Assembly (NCBI RefSeq): GCF_004634385.1
Contig: NZ_CP037895.1
Span: 1,525,245-1,589,244, forward strand
From: Thermaerobacter sp. FW80
Lineage (GTDB): Bacteria; Bacillota; Sulfobacillia; Thermaerobacterales; Thermaerobacteraceae
Direction: 5' to 3'
DNA length: 64,000 nt
Below are positions 37,086 through 53,994 of the stretch, one piece after another (position 1 is the first letter of the stretch; the number at the start of each line of letters is the position of its first letter). The position numbers and the translations under genes are program-made. The notes under the pieces are model-generated. The model made no database searches and had not been told where the DNA came from. It saw nothing but the letters and a program-made list of their open reading frames with translations.

Positions 37086-38048
37086 TCACGGCGCCCCAGC
37101 CCGACGCCCCAGCTCGCGGCCCACGTCTTGCCAGCTCACGTCGCGCGCCACCAGGAGGACCGTCAGGTGGTAGAGCAGGTCGGCCACCTCCTCCACCAGC
37201 CGTTGCCGGGACTGGTGGCCGCCGGCCACCACCGCCTCCACCGCCTCCTCGCCGACCTTCTGGAGGATGCGCGCGAGACCGGCCTCGAACAGCCGGGTGG
37301 TGTAGGAGCCCGGCGGGCGCTCCTTCTGGCGCTGGCGCACCACCGCCTCGAGCGCACCGAGCCCGGCGAGACCGCCGGGTGCGCCATCGGCGCTCCCGCT
37401 CGCCATGACGCCGTTGGCGCCCGCCCCCGCACCGCGATGGGCGGCTGCGGTCGCACGGCCGTCGCCGCCGCCACCATTGGCGCCCGCAGCGTCCATGCCG
37501 CGATGGGCGGCTGTGGTCGCATGGCCGTCGCCACCGTTGGCGTCCGCAGCGTCCGAACCGCGGTGGGCGGCTGCAGCCGCCGTGCCGCCGTCGTCACCCG
37601 CATCCGCCCCATCGTCATCGCCGCCCCCATGCGCCGCGGCGCCATCGGCACCTGCGCCCGCCTCGCCGCCGGGACCGGGGGCGGGCTGCGGGGGGCCGGC
37701 GCGGCTTGCCCCGCTCAGGGGCGCGCCGTCGACGCCCCGGTGGAAGCAGGTCCGCTGGCCGGTGTGGCACGCAGGCCCTGCGGGGTCCACCCGGTACAGC
37801 ACGGCGTCCCCGTCGCAGTCGATCCGCACCTCCTGCACCCGCAGCTCGTGGCCCGACGTCTCGCCCTTGCGCCAGAGCCGCCGGCGCGAGCGGCTGAAGA
37901 ACCAGGCCCGCCCCTCGGCCAGGGTGCGGGCCAGGGCCTCCCGGTCGGCGTACGCCAGCATCAGCACGTCGCCCCGGCCCGCGTCCTGCACCACCACCGG
38001 GACCAGCCCGCGCTGGTCGAACCGGACCGCCGTCAGGGTGTGTCGCAT
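37086..38048 (-). CDS. hisIE: Bifunctional phosphoribosyl-AMP cyclohydrolase / phosphoribosyl-ATP diphosphatase
   Basis: Performs steps 2 and 3 of histidine synthesis in one 320-residue chain. The HisI domain (about 1-110) has [47 protein letters not shown], the metal site [11 protein letters not shown], and the cysteines of [12 protein letters not shown]. The HisE domain (about 233-320) has [33 protein letters not shown] and [20 protein letters not shown] 120-residue Gly/Ala/His/Asp-rich linker with 20-22-residue repeats (AAHRGxDAAxANGG) replaces the usual short joint. ATG at 38048 follows AGGTGAG. It is the last gene of the his operon. Confidence 0.95.
37405..37600 (-). repeat. Tandem 60-66-bp coding repeats in the hisIE linker
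   Basis: Three imperfect copies encode [42 protein letters not shown] and [13 protein letters not shown]. The DNA units share GGGCGGCTG(C/T)GGTCGCA and GCCGTCGCC cores. They lie wholly within the linker between the HisI and HisE domains. Confidence 0.85.
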
Positions 38049-38129
38049 CCGTCTCACCTGCCCCCATGGGCCTCTCGCAAACCGCCCCGCGCCGCCTGAG
38101 GGCCAGCGGACACCCCGCGGGGAGCCCGA

Positions 38130-45035: not shown

Positions 45036-45778
45036 GCCCGTTCGCCTCCTCGGCCGGCGCCCTGGCGGGCGGCCGCCTCCAGCCGCTCGACCAGCGGCAG
45101 CACCGCCTCCTCCCGCAGCCGCAGGCTCGCCTCGTTGGCGATCAGCCGCGCCGTGCTGGGGAAGAGCACCTCGTACTCCACCAGCCCGTGGGTGCGCAGG
45201 GTGCGACCCGTGGCCACCAGGTCGACGATGACGTCGGCCAGCCCGGCCAGGGGGGCCAGTTCGACGGATCCGGCCAAGGGGATGACCTCGACCTCGACCG
45301 GGCCGCCGCCCAGGGCCCGGCGCGCGCAGCGGGGGTACTTGGTGGCGACGCGCAGCCTTCCCGGCTGGTGCCGGCGCCACGGCCACGTCGCAGCGCCTGC
45401 CGCCGGCCCCGCCACCGCCATGCGGCAGGCTCCGACCCCCAGGTCGGCCAGCTCGACGGCCGCCGGGGCATCGAGCCAGCCGGGGGGTGTCGGGCCGGCC
45501 ATCTCCTCCAGCACGTCCTTGCCGGTGATGCCCAGGTCGGCGCCGCCGAAGGCCACGTAGCTCCACACGTCGCCGGGCCGCACCAGCAAGAGCCGGACGC
45601 CGGCGTCGGCGTCGTCCAGCAGCAGCGCCGGCGGCTCCCCCCCGGTGGCGAGGGGGCGGGCGGCGGCGATGCCGGCCCGGACGCAGGGGTCCGCCACCTC
45701 CGGCAGCATGCGCCCCTTGGGGAGCGCCAGGGTCAGGGGGCGGGGGGTCGGGATGCAAGTTGGAACCTCCACCACCAT
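45023..45778 (-). CDS. hisG: ATP phosphoribosyltransferase, short form
   Basis: First step of the pathway, joining PRPP and ATP. The 251-residue protein is the short HisG form: LTLALPKGRMLPEVADPCVRAG, VRPGDVWSYVAFGGADLGITGKDVLEE, ADLGVGACRMAVAG, VATKYPRCA, GSVELAPLAGLADVIVDLVATGRTLRTHGLVE (PRPP loop ATGRT) and STARLIANEASLRL. It lacks the C-terminal ACT-like regulatory domain and so needs HisZ, whose gene is immediately upstream. The start may be ATG 45778 or one of the next GTG codons. It overlaps hisDC by 13 bases. Confidence 0.95.
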   Translation of the reverse strand: MVVEVPTCIPTPRPLTLALPKGRMLPEVADPCVRAGIAAARPLATGGEPPALLLDDADAGVRLLLVRPGDVWSYVAFGGADLGITGKDVLEEMAGPTPPGWLDAPAAVELADLGVGACRMAVAGPAAGAATWPWRRHQPGRLRVATKYPRCARRALGGGPVEVEVIPLAGSVELAPLAGLADVIVDLVATGRTLRTHGLVEYEVLFPSTARLIANEASLRLREEAVLPLVERLEAAARQGAGRGGERACAG

Positions 45779-45846: not shown

Positions 45847-47400
45847 TCACGCGTCGGGGGGCTCGCCCGCCGGCCACGCCATGCGCAGGACGCGGCGGGT
45901 TCCGTCGAGCCACAGGAGCCGCAGGCACCCCAGGCGACGGGCGGCGGCTGCCGCCTGCTCCTCGCCGGCCAAGCCCGCCATCACCACCGCGGAGGCCCCC
46001 TGGGCGCGGAGCCTTCGGGCCTCCTCCCACAGGCGGGCCGTCACGGCCCAGCGGGCGTCCTCCGGGCCGGCCCCCGCGGAGGGGGCCGGCCCCGCCACCA
46101 GGTAGTCGATGGGCGCGCCGGCGCCTTGGGCTGCGGGAGGTGGGCCGCTTTCGTCCCCGGTGGAGGTGGACCGGCCGACGGTGCCGTCCCAGGCGGCCTG
46201 TGGCCCCGACCCGCCGGCCCGCGTCGCTCCGCCGTGGGCGGCACCGCCCCGCGCCCGGGTCGGGCTAGGCCCGATCGCCGGTGCGACGGCATCCCGCAGC
46301 TCGCGCGCTGCAGGGCCGGGGTCCGGGTCCGGGGTCCCGGCGGCGCCCCCCCGTTCCCCGACCGCCGCCCCCATGGCGACGACCGCGTGCGGGTCGGCCG
46401 CCGCCTCCATCGCCGTCGCCTCGGCCACGGCCTCGACGTCGAAGGCCAGCCCCACCGCCGGCCCCTGGCCACCGAAACGGGCCAGCAGCCCGTCGTACCG
46501 GCCGCCGGCGGCGATGCGCCGCCGGCCCGCGAAGACCTCGACCACCAGGCCGGTGTAGTACTGCAGGTCGCGGACGAGACCGGGCTCCACCCGGATGCGG
46601 GCCACCTGCTTCGCCCCGAAGAGCCGGCCGACGGCCTCCAGCGTCGCGGCAAGGCCTGCGGCCGCCTCGCCGTCCTGCTCCGCCAGCCATTCCCGCGCGG
46701 CATCGGGGGGGAGGCTTCGGACCAGCACCGGGTACAGGCGGGCGGTGGCCGCGGCGCCCAGGGTCGCCTCCAGCTCCCTGCGCAGCGCCACCCGGTCCCG
46801 GCGGACCAGGGCGGCGAGGATCGTCCCCGCCGCCGTGCCATCCACGCCGTGCGAGGCCAGCACCGCCTGCAGCACGCCGACGTGCCCCACCGTCACCCGG
46901 ACGGGGGTGGCGGGGCCGTCGGGCAACGTCCCTCCCAGCCCCAGCCCGTCCAGCGCATCCAGGACCAGGCCCAAAAGTTCCACGTCCCCCGCGGGGGCGG
47001 GGAGACCCAGGAGCTCGACGCCGGCCTGGGTGACCGCGTGGAAGCGGCCGTCCCGCGGATCCCGGCGGTAGACGGCGTCGATGTAGGACAGGCGCCACGG
47101 ATCGGGACCGCGGAAGCGTGGGGCTGCCCAGCGGGCGACGGCGAGGGTGTGGTCCGGCCGCAGCGCCAGGACCCGGCCGGACGGATCGACGAACCGGCAC
47201 AGCGCCGTCTCCGGGAACACCTCCAGCAGAGGGGGGCCGGCCTCTTCCCAGAGCGGCGTCCGCACCCGGCGGTACCCCCAGCGGGCGAACAGGGTGGCCA
47301 GCCGGTGACGGACCGCCTCTTCCCGGTCGAGGGCGACGACGGTGCCGGATCCCCACGCGGGGGATCCCACGGACGTGGCGTGCAAGCTCATGGCGAACAT
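45847..47400 (-). CDS. hisZ: ATP phosphoribosyltransferase regulatory subunit
   Basis: A catalytically inactive HisRS paralogue that forms an octamer with short HisG and mediates feedback by histidine. Class II synthetase motifs are seen: LATLFARWGYRRVRTPLWEEA, FVDPSGRVLALRPDHTLAVARWAA, SYIDAVYRRDP, FHAVTQAGVELLG, then YYTGLVVEVFAG, IAAGGRYDGLLARFG and AVGLAFDVEAV. It lacks an anticodon-binding domain; instead the C-terminal part has a ~90-residue Gly/Pro/Ala-rich insertion before IDYLVAGP. 517 residues against about 390. ATG at 47400 has GGGAG at good distance; ATG 47412 is an alternative. First gene of the operon. Confidence 0.92.
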   Translation of the reverse strand: MFAMSLHATSVGSPAWGSGTVVALDREEAVRHRLATLFARWGYRRVRTPLWEEAGPPLLEVFPETALCRFVDPSGRVLALRPDHTLAVARWAAPRFRGPDPWRLSYIDAVYRRDPRDGRFHAVTQAGVELLGLPAPAGDVELLGLVLDALDGLGLGGTLPDGPATPVRVTVGHVGVLQAVLASHGVDGTAAGTILAALVRRDRVALRRELEATLGAAATARLYPVLVRSLPPDAAREWLAEQDGEAAAGLAATLEAVGRLFGAKQVARIRVEPGLVRDLQYYTGLVVEVFAGRRRIAAGGRYDGLLARFGGQGPAVGLAFDVEAVAEATAMEAAADPHAVVAMGAAVGERGGAAGTPDPDPGPAARELRDAVAPAIGPSPTRARGGAAHGGATRAGGSGPQAAWDGTVGRSTSTGDESGPPPAAQGAGAPIDYLVAGPAPSAGAGPEDARWAVTARLWEEARRLRAQGASAVVMAGLAGEEQAAAAARRLGCLRLLWLDGTRRVLRMAWPAGEPPDA

Positions 47401-47442
47401 CCCCGCTCCCATCCCGGTGACCGTTCCTCCGATGCTTCATTT

Positions 47443-47466
47443 CTTTAGCACATTAACACGTTAAAG
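47443..47466. promoter_or_regulatory. Operator-like palindrome over the his promoter
   Basis: The plus strand has CTTTA at 47443 and TAAAG ending at 47466 as outer arms, with a central TTAA. It also reads as 8-base steps TTAGCACA / TTAACACG / TTAAAGAG. It covers the likely -10 and start point of the his operon. A TrpR-type repressor is a plausible ligand because TrpR proteins bind tandem 8-base-spaced half-sites. The YerC/TrpR-like gene at 52682 is the candidate. Identification is inference. Confidence 0.5.
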
Positions 47467-47478
47467 AGATCCTGCCAA
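47450..47478 (-). promoter_or_regulatory. Promoter of the his operon
   Basis: On the minus strand TTGGCA (47473-47478), a 17-base spacer and TAATGT (47450-47455). The leader to hisZ is only about 45 bases, so there is no room for a T-box or a leader-peptide attenuator. Confidence 0.6.
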
Positions 47479-47519
47479 CCCGCCGCCGCGTCCGACGGCG
47501 CGATGCGGGACGGTTCACT

Positions 47520-48360
47520 GGACCCCGAAGACCCCCTCCGCCGGAGACGGACCCGGACGGGCCGGAAGACGCCGCGGCGAAGACGGCTGGGGTGGAAACG
47601 GTTGGGCAAGGCGCCTCCGGCGCCACCCGGGCGCGGCCGCGAAGGACGCGGCGATCCCGACCGGTGGTGGCGATGCCCGCCATCCGGGGGACGCGGCGAC
47701 CCCGCGAGCGACCAAGACGACCCGCGACCCGGGGGCCTGCATCGGGCCGTGACCCGCGGGGGGCGCTGGCGGTGCGGGGGCATGGGGGGCGGCCGAGACC
47801 GCAGCCGTCACGGCCCGCGGCGGACGGGAACGTCCCGAGGCGGGTGCGCCGTCCTTTCCGGGCGGCCCGGGGAGCGGCCGGAGGGGGCGGGGCGGCATCG
47901 GCGGTGGGGAGGCTCCCGGGGCTGGCGCGTCCTCGCGTCCGGCGGGAGAGGGTTCCGGGATCGCGTGGGGAAATGCCCCTCAGACCGGCCCGAGCCCGGG
48001 TGTGCGATCTCGCCGGCCTGCGGGAGACGGCCGGGTTTCATGGCGGCCGGGGCTGCCCCCGGTGGCCTCCAGGGCCGGCGACCCGGGGGGAGGCGCCCTC
48101 CGCGGCCGGCTTGGGGCGCAGGGCGGGCTGGGCCCGCTCGTCGGGTCGCCCAGGGCCGCCCGTGTCCCGGAGGGCCGACCACGACCGCCCGCACGACCGT
48201 CCTGGATGCCTGTCAGCCGGGACGGCCGATGCCCAGGGGGCCCCAGGGAGGGGCCCGACCACGGCCGCCCGCGCGGCCCCCCGTCGGCGGCGAGGGCCGG
48301 CGGCGCCCGCACGACCCCCCACCGGAGGCGAGGGCCGGCGGTGAAGGAGGACCGGAGACG
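47520..48360. other. 840-base GC-rich gap with degenerate repeats
   Basis: No supported gene. Open frames exist on both strands but are Arg/Pro/Gly-rich and have no recognisable domain or good ribosome site. The right end (about 48170-48350) holds degenerate direct repeats: (G/C)CGACCACG(A/G)CCGCCCG(C), and GCGAGGGCCGGCGG twice. I see no clear terminator or RNA motif. Confidence 0.5.
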
Positions 48361-49494
48361 GTGTACGACGTCATCGTCGTCGGGCTCGGTGGCATGGGCG
48401 GGGCCATCGCCTACCACCTGGCGCGGCGGGGCCGACGGGTGCTGGGCCTGGACCGCCTGGCTCCGCCCCACGACGCCGGTTCGTCCCACGGCAAGAGCCG
48501 CATCATCCGCCAGGCGTACTACGAGGATCCGGCCTACGTGCCGCTGGTGCTGCGGGCCTACGAGCTGTGGGAGGCGCTGGAGCGCGACAGCGGGGAGACC
48601 CTGCTGGTCAAGACCGGCGGCCTGATGATCGGCGCCCCCGATTCGCCCATCGTCGCCGGCAGCACGGAGAGCGCCCGGCGCCACGGGCTGAAGTACCGCA
48701 TGCTGAGCCCGGAGGACGTGGGCCGCTGGTTCCCCGCCTTTCGCCTGGAGCCCCACGAGGTGGCGGTCTACGAGGAAGAGGCCGGGGTGCTGTTCCCCGA
48801 GCGGGCGGTGGCCGCCCATCTGCGGCTGGCGCGGGCCGCGGGGGCGGAGCTGCGGCTCGACGCGCCGGTGGAGTCCTGGGTGGCGGGGTCCGACTCGGTG
48901 TCGGTGCGCACCCCGGCCGGCCGGTATCAGGCGGAGCGGCTGGTGCTGGCGGCGGGAGCCTGGAACCCGCGCCTGCTGGGCGGGGCGTTTCCCCTGGAGG
49001 TGGAGCGGCAGGTGAGCCTCTGGTTCCGGCCCGCGGAGCGGCCCGAGTGGTTCGAGGAGCACCTCCCGGTGTTCATCTGGGACCGCGGTCCGGAGCCCGC
49101 CCTCTACGGCCTGCCGGGGCTGGAGGGGGAGGGTGTGAAGGTCGGGCTCCACCACGGGGGGCAGGTGGGCGACCCGGACCGCCTCCCGCGCCAGGTGACG
49201 GAGGACGACGTCGAGCCCGTGCGCCGGCTCTTGGCCCGGCGCATGCCGCTCCTGGACCCGGAGCCCGTGCAGGCGTCGGTGTGCCTCTACACCAACACCC
49301 CCGACCGCCACTTCCTCGTGGGGACGCATCCCGACCACCCGGCGGTGGTGCTGGCCGCCGGCTTCTCCGGCCATGGGTTCAAGTTCTGCCCGGCGATCGG
49401 CGAGGCGGTGGCCGACCTGATCGAGGGCAAGGCGCGCCGGGATCTGGCGCTCTTCGACCCCCGCCGGTTCCGGGCTGGACCGGGGAGGGCGTGA
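48361..49494 (+). CDS. Monomeric sarcosine oxidase-type FAD enzyme
   Basis: A flavoprotein amine oxidase of 377 residues. The N-terminal Rossmann motif is YDVIVVGLGGMGGAIAYHLARRGRRVLGLDR, followed by PPHDAGSSHGKSRIIRQAYYEDPAYVPLVLRAYELW. The C-terminal part has the segment VCLYTNTPDRHFLVG, whose Cys corresponds to the covalent flavin attachment site of MSOX/MTOX, and AAGFSGHGFKFCPAIGEAVADL. Substrate could be sarcosine, N-methyl-tryptophan or another secondary amine. GTG at 48361 is close to GGAGAC with a stronger AAGGAGG further up. First of four tightly packed plus-strand genes. Confidence 0.9.
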   Translation: MYDVIVVGLGGMGGAIAYHLARRGRRVLGLDRLAPPHDAGSSHGKSRIIRQAYYEDPAYVPLVLRAYELWEALERDSGETLLVKTGGLMIGAPDSPIVAGSTESARRHGLKYRMLSPEDVGRWFPAFRLEPHEVAVYEEEAGVLFPERAVAAHLRLARAAGAELRLDAPVESWVAGSDSVSVRTPAGRYQAERLVLAAGAWNPRLLGGAFPLEVERQVSLWFRPAERPEWFEEHLPVFIWDRGPEPALYGLPGLEGEGVKVGLHHGGQVGDPDRLPRQVTEDDVEPVRRLLARRMPLLDPEPVQASVCLYTNTPDRHFLVGTHPDHPAVVLAAGFSGHGFKFCPAIGEAVADLIEGKARRDLALFDPRRFRAGPGRA

Positions 49495-49498
49495 CGGC

Positions 49499-50422
49499 GT
49501 GGCCGCGCGGGGGACGGCCTACGTGCTGGCGGCGGCGTCCCTGTGGGGGACGCTGGGCATCGTGGCGCGGCTGGCGTACGCAGGCGGGGCGACCCCCGGC
49601 GAGGTGGTCTTCTTCCGCGCCGCCATCGCCTTCGGGCTGGCCTGGGCCGCGGCCTGGCGGCAGGGCGTGTCGCTGGCCGTCCCCCGGCGGCGATGGCCGC
49701 TGCTGGTGGCCTACGGGACCATCAGCGTGGGCCTCTTCTACCTCAGCTACTTCTGGGCGGTGCGGCTGCTGCCGGTGGCGGTGGCGGCGGTGCTGCTCTA
49801 CACCGCACCGGTGCTGGTGGCGGTGCTGGCGCGGCTGCTGCTGGGCGAGCCCCTGGGCCCGCGGCGGGTGCTGGCCCTGGCGGTGGCGGTGGCCGGCGTG
49901 GTGCTGGTCAGCGCCCCGGATCCCGCCGCCGGTGTCCCGTGGGTCGGCCTGGCCGTCGGGCTGTTAGCCGGCCTGACCTACGCCCTCTACAGCATCTTCG
50001 GCAAGCTGGCGCTGCGGGATCTGGACCCGGCCGCGGTGGTGGTGTACACGCTGGGGGTCGGCGCCCTGGTGCTGCTGGTCGCCCTGCCGCCGAGCCGTTT
50101 GCTTCGCCTGGAGTGGACGCCGGCGGTGTGGGGGTGGGTGGTGCTGCTGGGAGCGGGCCCCACGTTCCTGGCCTACCGCCTCTACACCGCCGGCCTGCAG
50201 TGGATCCCCGCCTCCACGGCGGCCATCGTGGCGACGGTGGAGCCGGTGGTGGCGGCCCTGCTGGGCTGGCTGGTGCTGGGGGAGGCGCTGACGGGCGGTC
50301 AAGGGGTCGGGGCGCTGTTGGTGCTGCTGGCCAGCGTGCTGGCCCAGGAGGGCGCCGTCCGCGGCGTGCGGGGACCGGACGGGGGGAAGGAGGCGAGACG
50401 GCCGTGTCCGTCCGCTGGTTGA
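49499..50422 (+). CDS. EamA/DMT-family transporter
   Basis: A ten-helix exporter of 307 residues. The first EamA repeat begins GTAYVLAAASLWGTLGIVARLAYAGGATPGEVVFFRAAIAF; the second begins LAVGLLAGLTYALYSIFGKLALRDLDPAAVVVY, ending with STAAIVATVEPVVAALLGWLVLGEALTGGQGVGALLVLLA. GTG at 49499 lies 4 bases after the oxidase stop. In company with a sarcosine oxidase-like enzyme and a cyclodeaminase it may move amino acids or their products; substrate unknown. Confidence 0.88.
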   Translation: MAARGTAYVLAAASLWGTLGIVARLAYAGGATPGEVVFFRAAIAFGLAWAAAWRQGVSLAVPRRRWPLLVAYGTISVGLFYLSYFWAVRLLPVAVAAVLLYTAPVLVAVLARLLLGEPLGPRRVLALAVAVAGVVLVSAPDPAAGVPWVGLAVGLLAGLTYALYSIFGKLALRDLDPAAVVVYTLGVGALVLLVALPPSRLLRLEWTPAVWGWVVLLGAGPTFLAYRLYTAGLQWIPASTAAIVATVEPVVAALLGWLVLGEALTGGQGVGALLVLLASVLAQEGAVRGVRGPDGGKEARRPCPSAG

Positions 50423-51393
50423 CGGCCGCCGAGGTCGAGCGCTGCCTACCCATGGCCGAGGCCATCGACGCCATGGCCGAGGCCTTCGCGGCCGTCCACG
50501 CCGGTCGGGTGGCCATGCCCCTGCGCCTCGGCCTGGAGGCGCCGGCGGCCGGCGGCACGACGCTGTTCATGCCGGCCCACGATCCCGGCCTCGGCTACAC
50601 GGCGTTGAAGGTGGTCTCCGTCTACCCGGGCAACCCCGCCCGGGGCCTGCCCGCCATCGCGGGCCTGGTGATCCTGCTCGACGCCGGGACCGGCCGGCCC
50701 TTGGCCGTGATGGACGGCAGGGCCCTGACCGCGCTGCGCACGGGGGCGGCCAGCGGGATCGCCACGCGCCTTCTCGCCCGGCCCGACGCCTCGGTGCTGG
50801 CGGTGCTGGGCGCCGGTGCGCAGGCGCCCTACCAGGTGCTGGCCGTGTGTGCGGTGCGGCCCATCCGCCAGGTTCGCATCCACAACCGCACCCGGGCGCG
50901 GGCCGAGGCTCTGGCCGGGCGGCTGGCCGCGCGGCTCGGGCCCGCCGTCGAGGTCCGGGTCGCCGCCACCCCGGCCGAGGCGGCCCGCGGCGCCCACGTG
51001 ATCTGCACGGCGACGGCCGCCACGGAGCCGTTGCTGGGCGCGGCCGACGTGGCCCCGGGGACCCACGTCAACGCCGTGGGCAGCTTTCGCCGCGGGATGC
51101 GGGAGCTTGCCCGCGACCTGGTGGTGCGCGCCCGTCCGGTGTTCGTCGACCAGCGGGAGGCGGCGCGCGAGGAGGCCGGGGAGCTGATCGAGGCGCTGGA
51201 GGCGGGGGCGCTGGCGCCCGGGGATCTGGTTGAGCTCGGTGCCGTGCTGGCCGGGACCCACCCGGGCCGGGTCGACGCCGACCAGGTCACGATCTTCAAG
51301 AGCTGCGGGCTCGCCGCCCAGGACCTCTACGCCGCCGCCCGGGTGTGGGAGCGTGCGCAGGCCCTCGGAGTGGGCCGGGACGTGGCGCTGTAG
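50404..51393 (+). CDS. Ornithine cyclodeaminase / mu-crystallin family enzyme
   Basis: An NAD(P)-dependent enzyme of 329 residues in the OCD/Mu-crystallin family. Motifs are LGYTALKVVSVYPGNPARGLPAIAGLVILLDAGTGRPLAVMDGRALTALRTGAASGIATRLLA, the Rossmann GAGAQAPYQVLAVCAVRPIRQVRIHNRTRARAEALAGRLA, HVICTATAATEPLLGAADVAPGTHVNAVGSF and VTIFKSCGLAAQDLYAA. The family includes ornithine cyclodeaminase, an archaeal alanine dehydrogenase and imino-acid reductases, so the precise reaction is open. An amine or imine role would fit the adjacent sarcosine-oxidase-like enzyme. GTG at 50404 has AAGGAGG upstream and overlaps the transporter gene by 19 bases. Confidence 0.88.
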   Translation: MSVRWLTAAEVERCLPMAEAIDAMAEAFAAVHAGRVAMPLRLGLEAPAAGGTTLFMPAHDPGLGYTALKVVSVYPGNPARGLPAIAGLVILLDAGTGRPLAVMDGRALTALRTGAASGIATRLLARPDASVLAVLGAGAQAPYQVLAVCAVRPIRQVRIHNRTRARAEALAGRLAARLGPAVEVRVAATPAEAARGAHVICTATAATEPLLGAADVAPGTHVNAVGSFRRGMRELARDLVVRARPVFVDQREAAREEAGELIEALEAGALAPGDLVELGAVLAGTHPGRVDADQVTIFKSCGLAAQDLYAAARVWERAQALGVGRDVAL

Positions 51394-51414
51394 ATCAGGG
51401 AAAGGGGGACCCCG

Positions 51415-52368
51415 GTGCATCCGCTGGCGCCGCTGTTGGCCCTGGCCGGGGCCGTGCTGGCGATCTCCTTCTCCTCGGTCCTGATCCGGTTCTCCCAGGC
51501 GCCCAGCGCCGTCATCGCCTTCTACCGCATGGCGTTGACCACGGTGTTGCTGTTGCCCTGGGCGTGGCGGGAGGTGCATCGCGTCCGCCGCCTGCCGCCG
51601 GGCCTGCGGGGGGCCACGGTCCTCAGCGGCGTCCTGCTGGCCGGCCACTTCCTGACGTGGATCGCGTCCCTGCGCTACACCTCGGTGGCCGCGTCCGTCC
51701 TCCTGGTGACGTCCCATCCGCTGTACGTGATGGCCGCCGACGCGTGGCTGCTGCGGGAGCGGGTGCCACCGCGGCGCCTCCTGGGCGCCCTGCTGGCGCT
51801 GACCGGGGTGGCGGTGGTGACCTTCGCGGGCGCGGGGACGGGGGACCTGGCGGCGGGCAGTCGGGCGTTGTACGGCAACTTCCTCGCGGTGGCGGGATCC
51901 TGGTTCTTCGCCGGCTACATCCTGATCGGGCGGCGGGTGCGCCAGGTGCTGCCCGTCATGCCCTACACCACCGTGGTGTACGGGGTGGCCGCGGCGGTCA
52001 TCGCCCTGGGGCTGCTGGCGACCGGGACTCCCTTCGGGCCGTACCCGGGGCGGGAACTCTTGATCTTCGTCGCCCTGGCGGTGGTGCCGACCCTGGGGGG
52101 GCACACGGTCCTCAACTGGGCGCTGGAGTACGTGCCGGCCAGCGTGGTCTCGGTGTCGATCCTCGGCGAGCCGGTGGGGGCGGCGCTGCTGGCCTGGCTG
52201 CTACTGGGGGAGGCGCCCTCGGGGGTGGAGCTGGCCGGCGGGGCGTTGACGCTGGCGGGCCTGTTCATCGCCACCCAGTCGGCCGGGCGGGCGGCCAGCC
52301 CGACGGCCGGCGAGGCGCCCGGGCCGGCGGGCCAGGACGCGCCCCCAGGTCCCTCGCCGGCGCGGTGA
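51415..52368 (+). CDS. EamA/DMT-family transporter
   Basis: A second ten-helix DMT exporter, 317 residues, distinct from the one at 49499. It starts LAPLLALAGAVLAISFSSVLIRFSQAPSAVIAFYRMALTTVLLLPWAW, continues HFLTWIASLRYTSVAASVLLVTSHPLYVMAADAWLL, and repeat two begins YGNFLAVAGSWFFAGYILIGRRVR, ending ASVVSVSILGEPVGAALLAWLLLGEAPSGVELAGGALTLAGLF. GTG at 51415 follows AAGGGGGAC, 21 bases after the cyclodeaminase stop. Substrate unknown. Confidence 0.88.
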   Translation: MHPLAPLLALAGAVLAISFSSVLIRFSQAPSAVIAFYRMALTTVLLLPWAWREVHRVRRLPPGLRGATVLSGVLLAGHFLTWIASLRYTSVAASVLLVTSHPLYVMAADAWLLRERVPPRRLLGALLALTGVAVVTFAGAGTGDLAAGSRALYGNFLAVAGSWFFAGYILIGRRVRQVLPVMPYTTVVYGVAAAVIALGLLATGTPFGPYPGRELLIFVALAVVPTLGGHTVLNWALEYVPASVVSVSILGEPVGAALLAWLLLGEAPSGVELAGGALTLAGLFIATQSAGRAASPTAGEAPGPAGQDAPPGPSPAR

Positions 52369-52681
52369 GGCGGGCGCCGGGGCCGCCCCGTGGCGGGGTC
52401 CGGTCCCCGCGACGGGCCGAGGGCCCTACGAGGTCCCTCCCTCGGCTGCGGCCTTGCCGCCGCGTGGATCCTGCCGCAGCCCCTCGCGTGGATCCTGGAG
52501 CAGCCCCTGGGGTCGAGCCGCCGGTCGGGTCCTCGGGCCGGTGGGCGGGGTCCTGCCGCGGCCGCAGCCGCCTGGGCGTGGGGGTTGCCGTGCTGCCGGC
52601 CGTCGCGCCGCGGGCACCCCTGGCCGTCGCACCGCGGGCGCTGCCGGCGCCACGCCGCGCGTCGGGCGGCCGCTTCGTCCG
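52369..52681. other. Gap with a 24-bp tandem duplication
   Basis: Between convergent genes. A 24-base unit starting GCGTGGATCCTG occurs twice in tandem (52462-52485 and 52486-52509) with three differences. The CGGACGAACC-like motif variant GGCCGCTTCGTCC lies at 52670. No gene or strong terminator is evident. Confidence 0.5.
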
Positions 52682-53110
52682 CTAGGCCGGCGGGGTGGAG
52701 GGGGACCGGCGGGGGGACGGCCGGGCGGGAGGCGCGTCGCCCGCATCGCCGGCTCCGCGCCGGCCCGCCGCGGGCCGGGTCGGTTCGTCGGACGCGCCGT
52801 CCCCCGAAGGCGCCTGCCGTCGCGCCAGGCGCTCCAGCACCAGCCGGTAGCCGTCGGCGCCGTAGTGGAGGAACCGGTTGACCCGGCTGATGGTGGCCGA
52901 GCTCATGCCCGTCTCCCGCTGGATCTGCTCGTAGGTCTGGCCCTGGGCCAGGCGCTGGGCGACCTCGAAGCGCAGGGCCAAGGACTGGATCTCGCCCACC
53001 GTGCAGAGGTCCTCGAAGAAGCGATAGCACTCCTCCAGGTTCTGCAGGGAGAGGATGGCTTCGAAGAGGCGGTCGACGCGAGGGTGTTGGAGGCGCGACT
53101 GGTATGCCAC
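52682..53110 (-). CDS. YerC/YecD-family (TrpR-like) transcriptional regulator
   Basis: A small regulator of 142 residues in the TrpR superfamily. The core matches YerC: LFEAILSLQNLEECYRFFEDLCTVGEIQSLALRFEVAQRLAQGQTYEQIQRETGMSSATISRVNRFLHYGADGYRLVLERL, with the helix-turn-helix at TYEQIQRETGMSSATISRVNRFL. The last 35 residues are a Pro/Ala/Arg tail. GTG at 53110 is 7 bases from a GGGGAGG site. Members of this group have been proposed as histidine-responsive regulators of his genes, and a TrpR-like operator overlaps the his promoter at 47443. The link is inference. Confidence 0.85.
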   Translation of the reverse strand: MAYQSRLQHPRVDRLFEAILSLQNLEECYRFFEDLCTVGEIQSLALRFEVAQRLAQGQTYEQIQRETGMSSATISRVNRFLHYGADGYRLVLERLARRQAPSGDGASDEPTRPAAGRRGAGDAGDAPPARPSPRRSPSTPPA

Positions 53111-53327: not shown

Positions 53328-53837
53328 CTACCGGGCCCCCGACCCGTCCGCGGCGCCGCTGCGGCTCCCCGACCCCTCGGTTCCCCGGGTGCGCTCGCGG
53401 GCCCGTCGCTCCTGACACCGCGGGCAGATGCCGTAGAACTCGAACCGCTGGCCCAGGATGACGAAGTCCGACCGCTCGGCGACCCGCTGGCCGATGCCCT
53501 CCAGGGCCTCGGCGTCGACGTCGAAGATGGTCTTGCAGTCCACGCACTGGACGTTGGCGTGGGCATGGGGGTTGCCGTCGTATCGCTGCACGTCGCCGGG
53601 GAAGCCCAGCTGGCTGGCCAGCCCGAGCTCCACCAAGAGCTCCAGGGTGTTGTAGACCGTGGCCGGGCTGATCATCGGGAACCGCTCCCGCGCCTGCTGG
53701 TAGAGCTCCTCGGCGCTGGGGTGGTGCGAGCGGCGCGCGTTCTCCTGGAGCAGCTCGTAGATGGCCAGGCGTTGGGCCGTCACCCGGTAACCGCGATCGG
53801 CCAGGAGTCGCCGGAATTCGTCCATCGCCAGGGCCAT
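53328..53837 (-). CDS. perR: Fur-family regulator, PerR-like
   Basis: A metal-dependent repressor of 169 residues. The winged helix is EFRRLLADRGYRVTAQRLAIYELLQENARRSHHPSAEELYQQARERFPMISPATVYNTLELLVELGLASQL. The regulatory site fits PerR: His in RRSHHPSAEEL, and RYDGNPHAHANVQC with the Asp and two His residues, plus IFDVD. Structural zinc uses CVDC and CPRC. Presence of the Asp rather than Glu in YDGNPHAH favours PerR over Fur or Zur. It lies just after the P1B-4 ATPase gene, a known partner of PerR/Fur. ATG at 53837 is chosen. The C-terminus has a 25-residue extra tail. Confidence 0.82.
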   Translation of the reverse strand: MALAMDEFRRLLADRGYRVTAQRLAIYELLQENARRSHHPSAEELYQQARERFPMISPATVYNTLELLVELGLASQLGFPGDVQRYDGNPHAHANVQCVDCKTIFDVDAEALEGIGQRVAERSDFVILGQRFEFYGICPRCQERRARERTRGTEGSGSRSGAADGSGAR

Positions 53838-53994
53838 CGCCGTCACAACCTTTCCCCGGCGGCATGGCCCGCCGGTCGTCCCATCGGCTGCGGCGCGGTC
53901 GGCGGACGGGCTGCAAAGGTCGCCGAACCGCAAGTCTTGATCGGAATTTTCGCGAATCCCGCTCAAATCAGGCGATCTATCAATCCATCTTCGA

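Follow-up and report, generated by a model that had tools for sequence, protein, structure and literature searches.

We conclude, with a confidence of roughly 90%, that HisR, the product of yerC, represses the his genes of Thermaerobacter sp. FW80 through an element at positions 47443 to 47466 of the window, by which we mean the whole 64,000-nucleotide stretch of DNA that was analyzed (Table 1). The conclusion is carried by the element itself, its conservation, its place upstream of hisZ, and the gene family to which yerC belongs. In the proposed mechanism, yerC would encode a TrpR-family repressor that, when loaded with histidine, sits on the element and covers that part of the his promoter in which the -10 hexamer and the start point are predicted. 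RNA polymerase would be sterically blocked, and hisZ and the genes behind it would be shut off. Most simply, HisR dimers loaded with histidine would be seated in overlapping registers across the -10 region and would block initiation. The earlier note, made from the sequence alone, had named YerC as a candidate repressor of the his operon, and the proposal is supported by a box that matches the published consensus at 12 of 14 positions, by conservation in congeners, and by the presence of yerC in 40 of 40 related genomes with hisG; moreover, the protein is already in print as HisR. The link between YerC and the his genes is thus largely known, and what is added here is its extension to this class and a ladder of half-sites at 8-bp steps. 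In this very GC-rich genus, histidine synthesis is probably under the control of a regulator known from other lineages, and the ladder is a testable HisR binding mode that resembles tandem binding by TrpR.

Table 1. Features of the his locus and of yerC, in coordinates of the window
Feature	Position	Strand	Remarks
hisI-hisE fusion, far end of the his cluster	37086-38057	-	PF01502 and PF01503
hisG (extent of family match)	45137-45736	-	TIGR00070 match; contig positions 1570381-1570980
hisZ, first gene of the his cluster	45847-47412	-	TIGR00443, E 1.5e-57, 195 bits, below the curated cutoff of 271.65; PF13393
Second overlapping 20-bp register, 8-bp shift	47441-47460		9/14 matches; opposite shift, 8/14
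Stepped HisR operator (predicted)	47443-47466	-	TA half-site centers at 47462-47463, 47454-47455, and 47446-47447, 8 bp apart
20-bp HisR box (published), best register	47449-47468		12/14 matches
Probable extended -10, TGT-TAATGT, inside the operator	47450-47455	-	TAAAGT in three congeners
Probable -35, TTGGCA	47473-47478	-	Absent from the stricter promoter scan
yerC (hisR), TrpR-family repressor gene	52682-53110	-	142 aa from GTG at 53110; TIGR02531, PF01371

Read on the minus strand from 47466 down to 47443, the element is CTTTAACGTGTTAATGTGCTAAAG, an AT-rich island with a local GC content of 35% compared to 75% around it. The 24-mer occurs at a single site in the 3.04-Mb genome when as many as three mismatches are allowed, and a reversed-pattern control gave no site. 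The window's operator has three TA rungs, and the pattern TTA-N5-TTA-N5-TTA, or its TAA mirror, was found at one place in the 64 kb, the element itself. Thus, of an initial description of the element as partly palindromic and 8-base stepped, the 8-bp step held and is unique in the window. Palindromy is present but unremarkable: the element is self-complementary at 16 of its 24 positions, and 973 24-mers of the window, the element included, equal that level. We therefore rejected palindromy as evidence for an operator. The published HisR-box consensus was derived from other lineages and fits the element without refitting; it scored 10 or more only once in the window, in the best register, and the next best place scored 9. 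The stepped element upstream of hisZ is confirmed as real.

Three congeners retain the element upstream of hisZ as a 24-bp island with 18 of 24 columns identical and flanks that diverge. The exact core CTTTAN6TAAAG has one site in each congener genome (3/3), always upstream of hisZ. The window's own site matches that core only at one mismatch, and this loose core also occurs at three further positions of the same genome. When one mismatch or none was required, the core was found at 4, 7, 5, and 3 places in G000 to G003 (G000 being the genome of the window), and the reversed pattern was found at 5, 10, 5, and 8. The loose core is at or below its control, and specificity therefore rests on the longer element. 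We claim no further regulon members in the genus, as the core counts at one mismatch or fewer did not rise above the reversed-pattern control.

The distribution of yerC in the class follows that of the his genes. In a set of 61 genomes (the window's and 60 relatives), 44 carried yerC and 40 carried hisG, such that 40 had both genes, none had hisG only, 4 had yerC only, and 17 had neither (Fisher P value of 1e-11, with kinship not corrected). Every hisG genome had yerC, and all 17 genomes without yerC were also without hisG. The genomes with yerC and no detected hisG were G019, G029, G055, and G060. Phylogenetic footprinting upstream of hisZ, which the earlier note had put forward as a check, did not refute the proposal: besides the three congeners in which the element is kept, the best box upstream of the his genes scored at least 10 in 34 of the 40 hisG genomes and at least 11 in 20 of them, with 6 of the 40 scoring below 10. 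Four of the upstream stretches in the class end at contig ends, and the start of the stretch was set by the hisG match in G054 and by a partial hisZ match in G012, G037, and G053.

The gene order in the class also ties the box to hisZ. In 24 of the 40 hisG genomes, yerC precedes hisZ on the same strand at a distance of no more than about 10 kb (0.1 to 10 kb); in 14 of the remaining 16, the two genes are on different contigs. Where at most 1.7 kb separates hisZ from an upstream yerC, the best box (scores of 9 to 13) falls between both genes in 16 of 16 genomes, which were picked from the yerC and hisZ match tables. Moreover, of the 44 class loci with yerC, 25 were examined, and none of these had a box of at least 10 ahead of the gene; the best score there was 7 in the window genome and the three congeners and 9 or less in the 21 other loci. 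Since boxes lie between yerC and hisZ and none of at least 10 lies before yerC, the box governs hisZ and not yerC itself, as far as tested in the class. This differs from the published regulon, for which the accessible text reports HisR autoregulation in 183 genomes (PMC9413887). The named yerC loci contribute little more: among 80 of them, a box of at least 12 preceded yerC in 5, and an 8-bp neighbor was present in 5/5.

The association extends to a wider-phylum set of 299 genomes, taken as Bacillota, in which hisZ was matched at an E value of 1e-72 or better in at least 194 genomes and yerC was matched in 202, the two lists not being cross-tabulated. Sixty stretches upstream of hisZ were hand-picked among the matches listed, roughly one from each of 58 families, with two families sampled twice, and "yerC-less" here means outside the 202 genomes with a yerC match. 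Among these 60 stretches, a box of at least 11 was present in 29 of 49 yerC-bearing genomes and in 1 of 11 yerC-less genomes (P value of 0.006). The sole yerC-less genome with such a box was G078, which is listed as 78% complete, and 20 of the 49 yerC-bearing genomes scored below 11.

The operators of both sets are stepped. When the best class box was moved 8 bp in either direction, it still matched a mean of 7.2 and 7.8 of the 14 positions, compared to 1.9 to 4.9 at the other shifts of 1 to 24 bp (34 sites). Because overlap accounts for two of the 14 matches at the 8-bp shift, later counts were restricted to bases outside the box, with a further half-site defined as at least three of four bases matching exactly 8 bp beyond the 20-bp box. 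The ladder counts exclude the 6 of 40 class sites that scored below 10 and the 20 of 49 yerC-bearing wider-phylum sites that scored below 11. Of the class operators, 29 of 34 had a further half-site at 8 bp, as did 25 of 29 wider-phylum operators, whereas 1,000 sets of shuffled flanks gave means of 5.0 of 34 (maximum of 12) and 7.8 of 29 (maximum of 16). Control offsets of 10 to 19 bp reached at most 8/34 in the class and 11/29 in the wider phylum, and yerC-less genomes had the 8-bp half-site in 1 of 11. Background places scoring at least 9 in the window and the loci then compared, which may include real HisR sites, had it in 668 of 3,167 cases. Counted as consecutive TA rungs, at least one further rung was found in 25/34 class and 26/29 other operators (means of 4.8 and 6.8 in 500 shuffled sets) and at least two in 15/34 and 16/29 (means of 0.4 and 1.1, again in 500 sets). 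The 8-bp step is general among HisR operators of the class and the wider phylum.

Farther from the box, the signal is mixed. A second rung, at 16 bp, is conspicuous among the class sites (8 and 8 of 34), whereas in the wider phylum the mean at that offset does not exceed the best offset off the lattice. Off-lattice signals in the wider set include a half-site match 7 bp upstream in 15/29 operators and TA peaks at 13 and 19 bp upstream (12/29 and 10/29), and the class has a TA peak at 26 bp upstream (9/34). These signals may be promoter elements. We do not claim that weak boxes are offset by more rungs, as the correlations had opposite signs (rho of 0.32 and P value of 0.05 for 39 class sites scoring at least 9; rho of -0.29 and P value of 0.13 for 29 others).

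How HisR occupies a stepped operator may be guided by TrpR, as the 8-bp ladder suggests overlapping HisR dimers of the kind that TrpR can form. TrpR and trp operators were reportedly also treated by Lawson and Carey in 1993. HisR and TrpR share a protein family and, according to the accessible text of the papers concerned, TrpR half-sites have an 8-bp spacer (PMC9413887), and TrpR can bind as tandem dimers on synthetic operators (PMC8745587). Unlike HisR, TrpR recognizes the motif TGTAcTnGTnnACnAgTACA and uses tryptophan as co-repressor, and the same text states that HisR does not conserve most of the residues that contact tryptophan (PMC9413887). TrpR-operator structures published in 2025 are of Francisella TrpR with a trp operator and not of HisR (PMC12585640). 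Judging from the arrangement of half-sites, we lean toward an element that would seat more than one HisR dimer in two overlapping 20-bp registers, shifted by 8 bp and sharing a common central half-site. We likewise think it somewhat probable that HisR operators of the phylum are ladders in which TA-centered half-sites recur at 8-bp intervals, with two to six rungs in those inspected, that several dimers sit side by side on them, and that operator length sets how strong and how steep histidine repression is. Such a ladder would alter the scoring of HisR sites, as a 20-bp matrix would see only part of the operator.

Alternatively, HisR might bind the 20-bp palindrome as one dimer, and the outer half-sites might be inert leftovers of register slippage. 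We consider this possible but rather unlikely. In its favor, the motif in print consists of one 20-bp palindrome and, per the accessible text, the 30-bp fragment assayed held one site (PMC9413887); moreover, the 8-bp neighbor is absent from 5/34 class and 4/29 other operators. The excess of 8-bp half-sites over shuffled flanks and over control offsets in both sets argues against a single dimer, and a layout kept across many families would hardly be expected of idle sites. As far as its accessible text goes, the published account treats the HisR site as a palindrome and uses "tandem" only for codons and riboswitches (PMC9413887), and HisR operators with a tandem or stepped layout were not described in the literature searched, which was mostly open access and lay outside the supplements of that study.

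That yerC encodes HisR follows the naming of Ashniev et al. (2022), in whose accessible text YerC orthologues are TrpR-family proteins with the common box cacTTTAnnnnnnTAAAgtg, and HisR of Ruminococcus gnavus binds DNA in vitro in a histidine-dependent manner (PMC9413887). A proposal that this family controls histidine genes is therefore in print, with binding demonstrated for the R. gnavus protein. The published regulon and the one described here are alike in protein family, target operon, 20-bp box, and the expected co-repressor, histidine; the main text of that study makes no mention of Thermaerobacter, Symbiobacterium, or Sulfobacillus. Earlier, in 2013, a HisR motif upstream of hisZ was proposed by footprinting in Clostridium acetobutylicum (PMC3828012), the same place as here but in another lineage, and no stepped layout is seen in the accessible part of that report. 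A literature search on Thermaerobacter and histidine biosynthesis returned no paper.

The Thermaerobacter protein scored 134.2 bits against TIGR02531 (cutoff of 42.2), also matched PF01371, and is the only match to its family in the genome. The solved chains nearest to it, 3frw, 3kor, and 3g1c, are named putative or TrpR-like repressors. All 17 class sequences that were aligned, from the 44 found, have Tyr60, Ala72, Thr73, and Arg76, in agreement with the TrpR-type helix-turn-helix pattern that the accessible text reports for HisR (PMC9413887). Another regulator could act on the element, with YerC controlling something else; four class genomes have yerC and no detected hisG, and binding by YerC in Thermaerobacter is predicted. 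We regard this as very improbable, as a HisR consensus from other lineages fits without refitting, 10 of the 11 yerC-less genomes have no box of at least 11, and yerC precedes hisZ on the same strand within about 10 kb in 24 of the 40 class genomes with hisG.

The promoter over which HisR would act is itself a prediction. The hisZ gene starts at ATG 47412 with GGAGG upstream, and the probable -35 and -10 hexamers are spaced by 17 bp, which would leave a leader of about 30 nucleotides. No promoter was returned under the stricter rule of the promoter scan, and an overlap of the element with the his -10 region and start point is therefore only inferred. The initial claim that the leader is too short for a T-box or attenuator fits these data if the predicted promoter is right. 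No T-box or other RNA family matched at gathering score when the whole window was searched against Rfam, and the search of 47300 to 48400 gave only a subthreshold livK match inside hisZ (24.6 versus 65 bits). No terminator was found in 47300 to 48400, and the leader folds ordinarily (z of -0.24). T-box or attenuator control, which the accessible text of one study describes for his operons in other Bacillota (PMC9413887) and which would make the AT island merely the promoter of an RNA device, was therefore rejected as scarcely credible, and a promoter alone would not yield the HisR consensus and the 8-bp step.

Finally, the surroundings of yerC differ somewhat from the initial description, which had correctly assigned the gene to the YerC family but placed it 8 kb from the element; the distance is 5.2 to 5.7 kb. 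Between yerC and hisZ, at 48361 to 52368, lie four genes on the opposite strand, for an FAD oxidoreductase, an EamA transporter, an ornithine cyclodeaminase family protein, and a second EamA protein. The same cassette is found at this place in the three congeners, and yerC adjoins hisZ in the same-order genomes G005 and G006; perhaps the cassette is an insertion. The distance from the element to the start of the first gene of the divergent cassette is about 210 to 260 bp in the congeners and about 890 bp in the window, and the cassette is a possible but unsupported HisR target. A gene for a Fur-family regulator (53328 to 53966) adjoins yerC, as it does in the three congeners. We also note that the HisI-HisE fusion encoded at 37086 to 38057 has about 128 residues of low-complexity appearance between its PRA-CH (residues 33 to 106) and PRA-PH (residues 235 to 319) domains.
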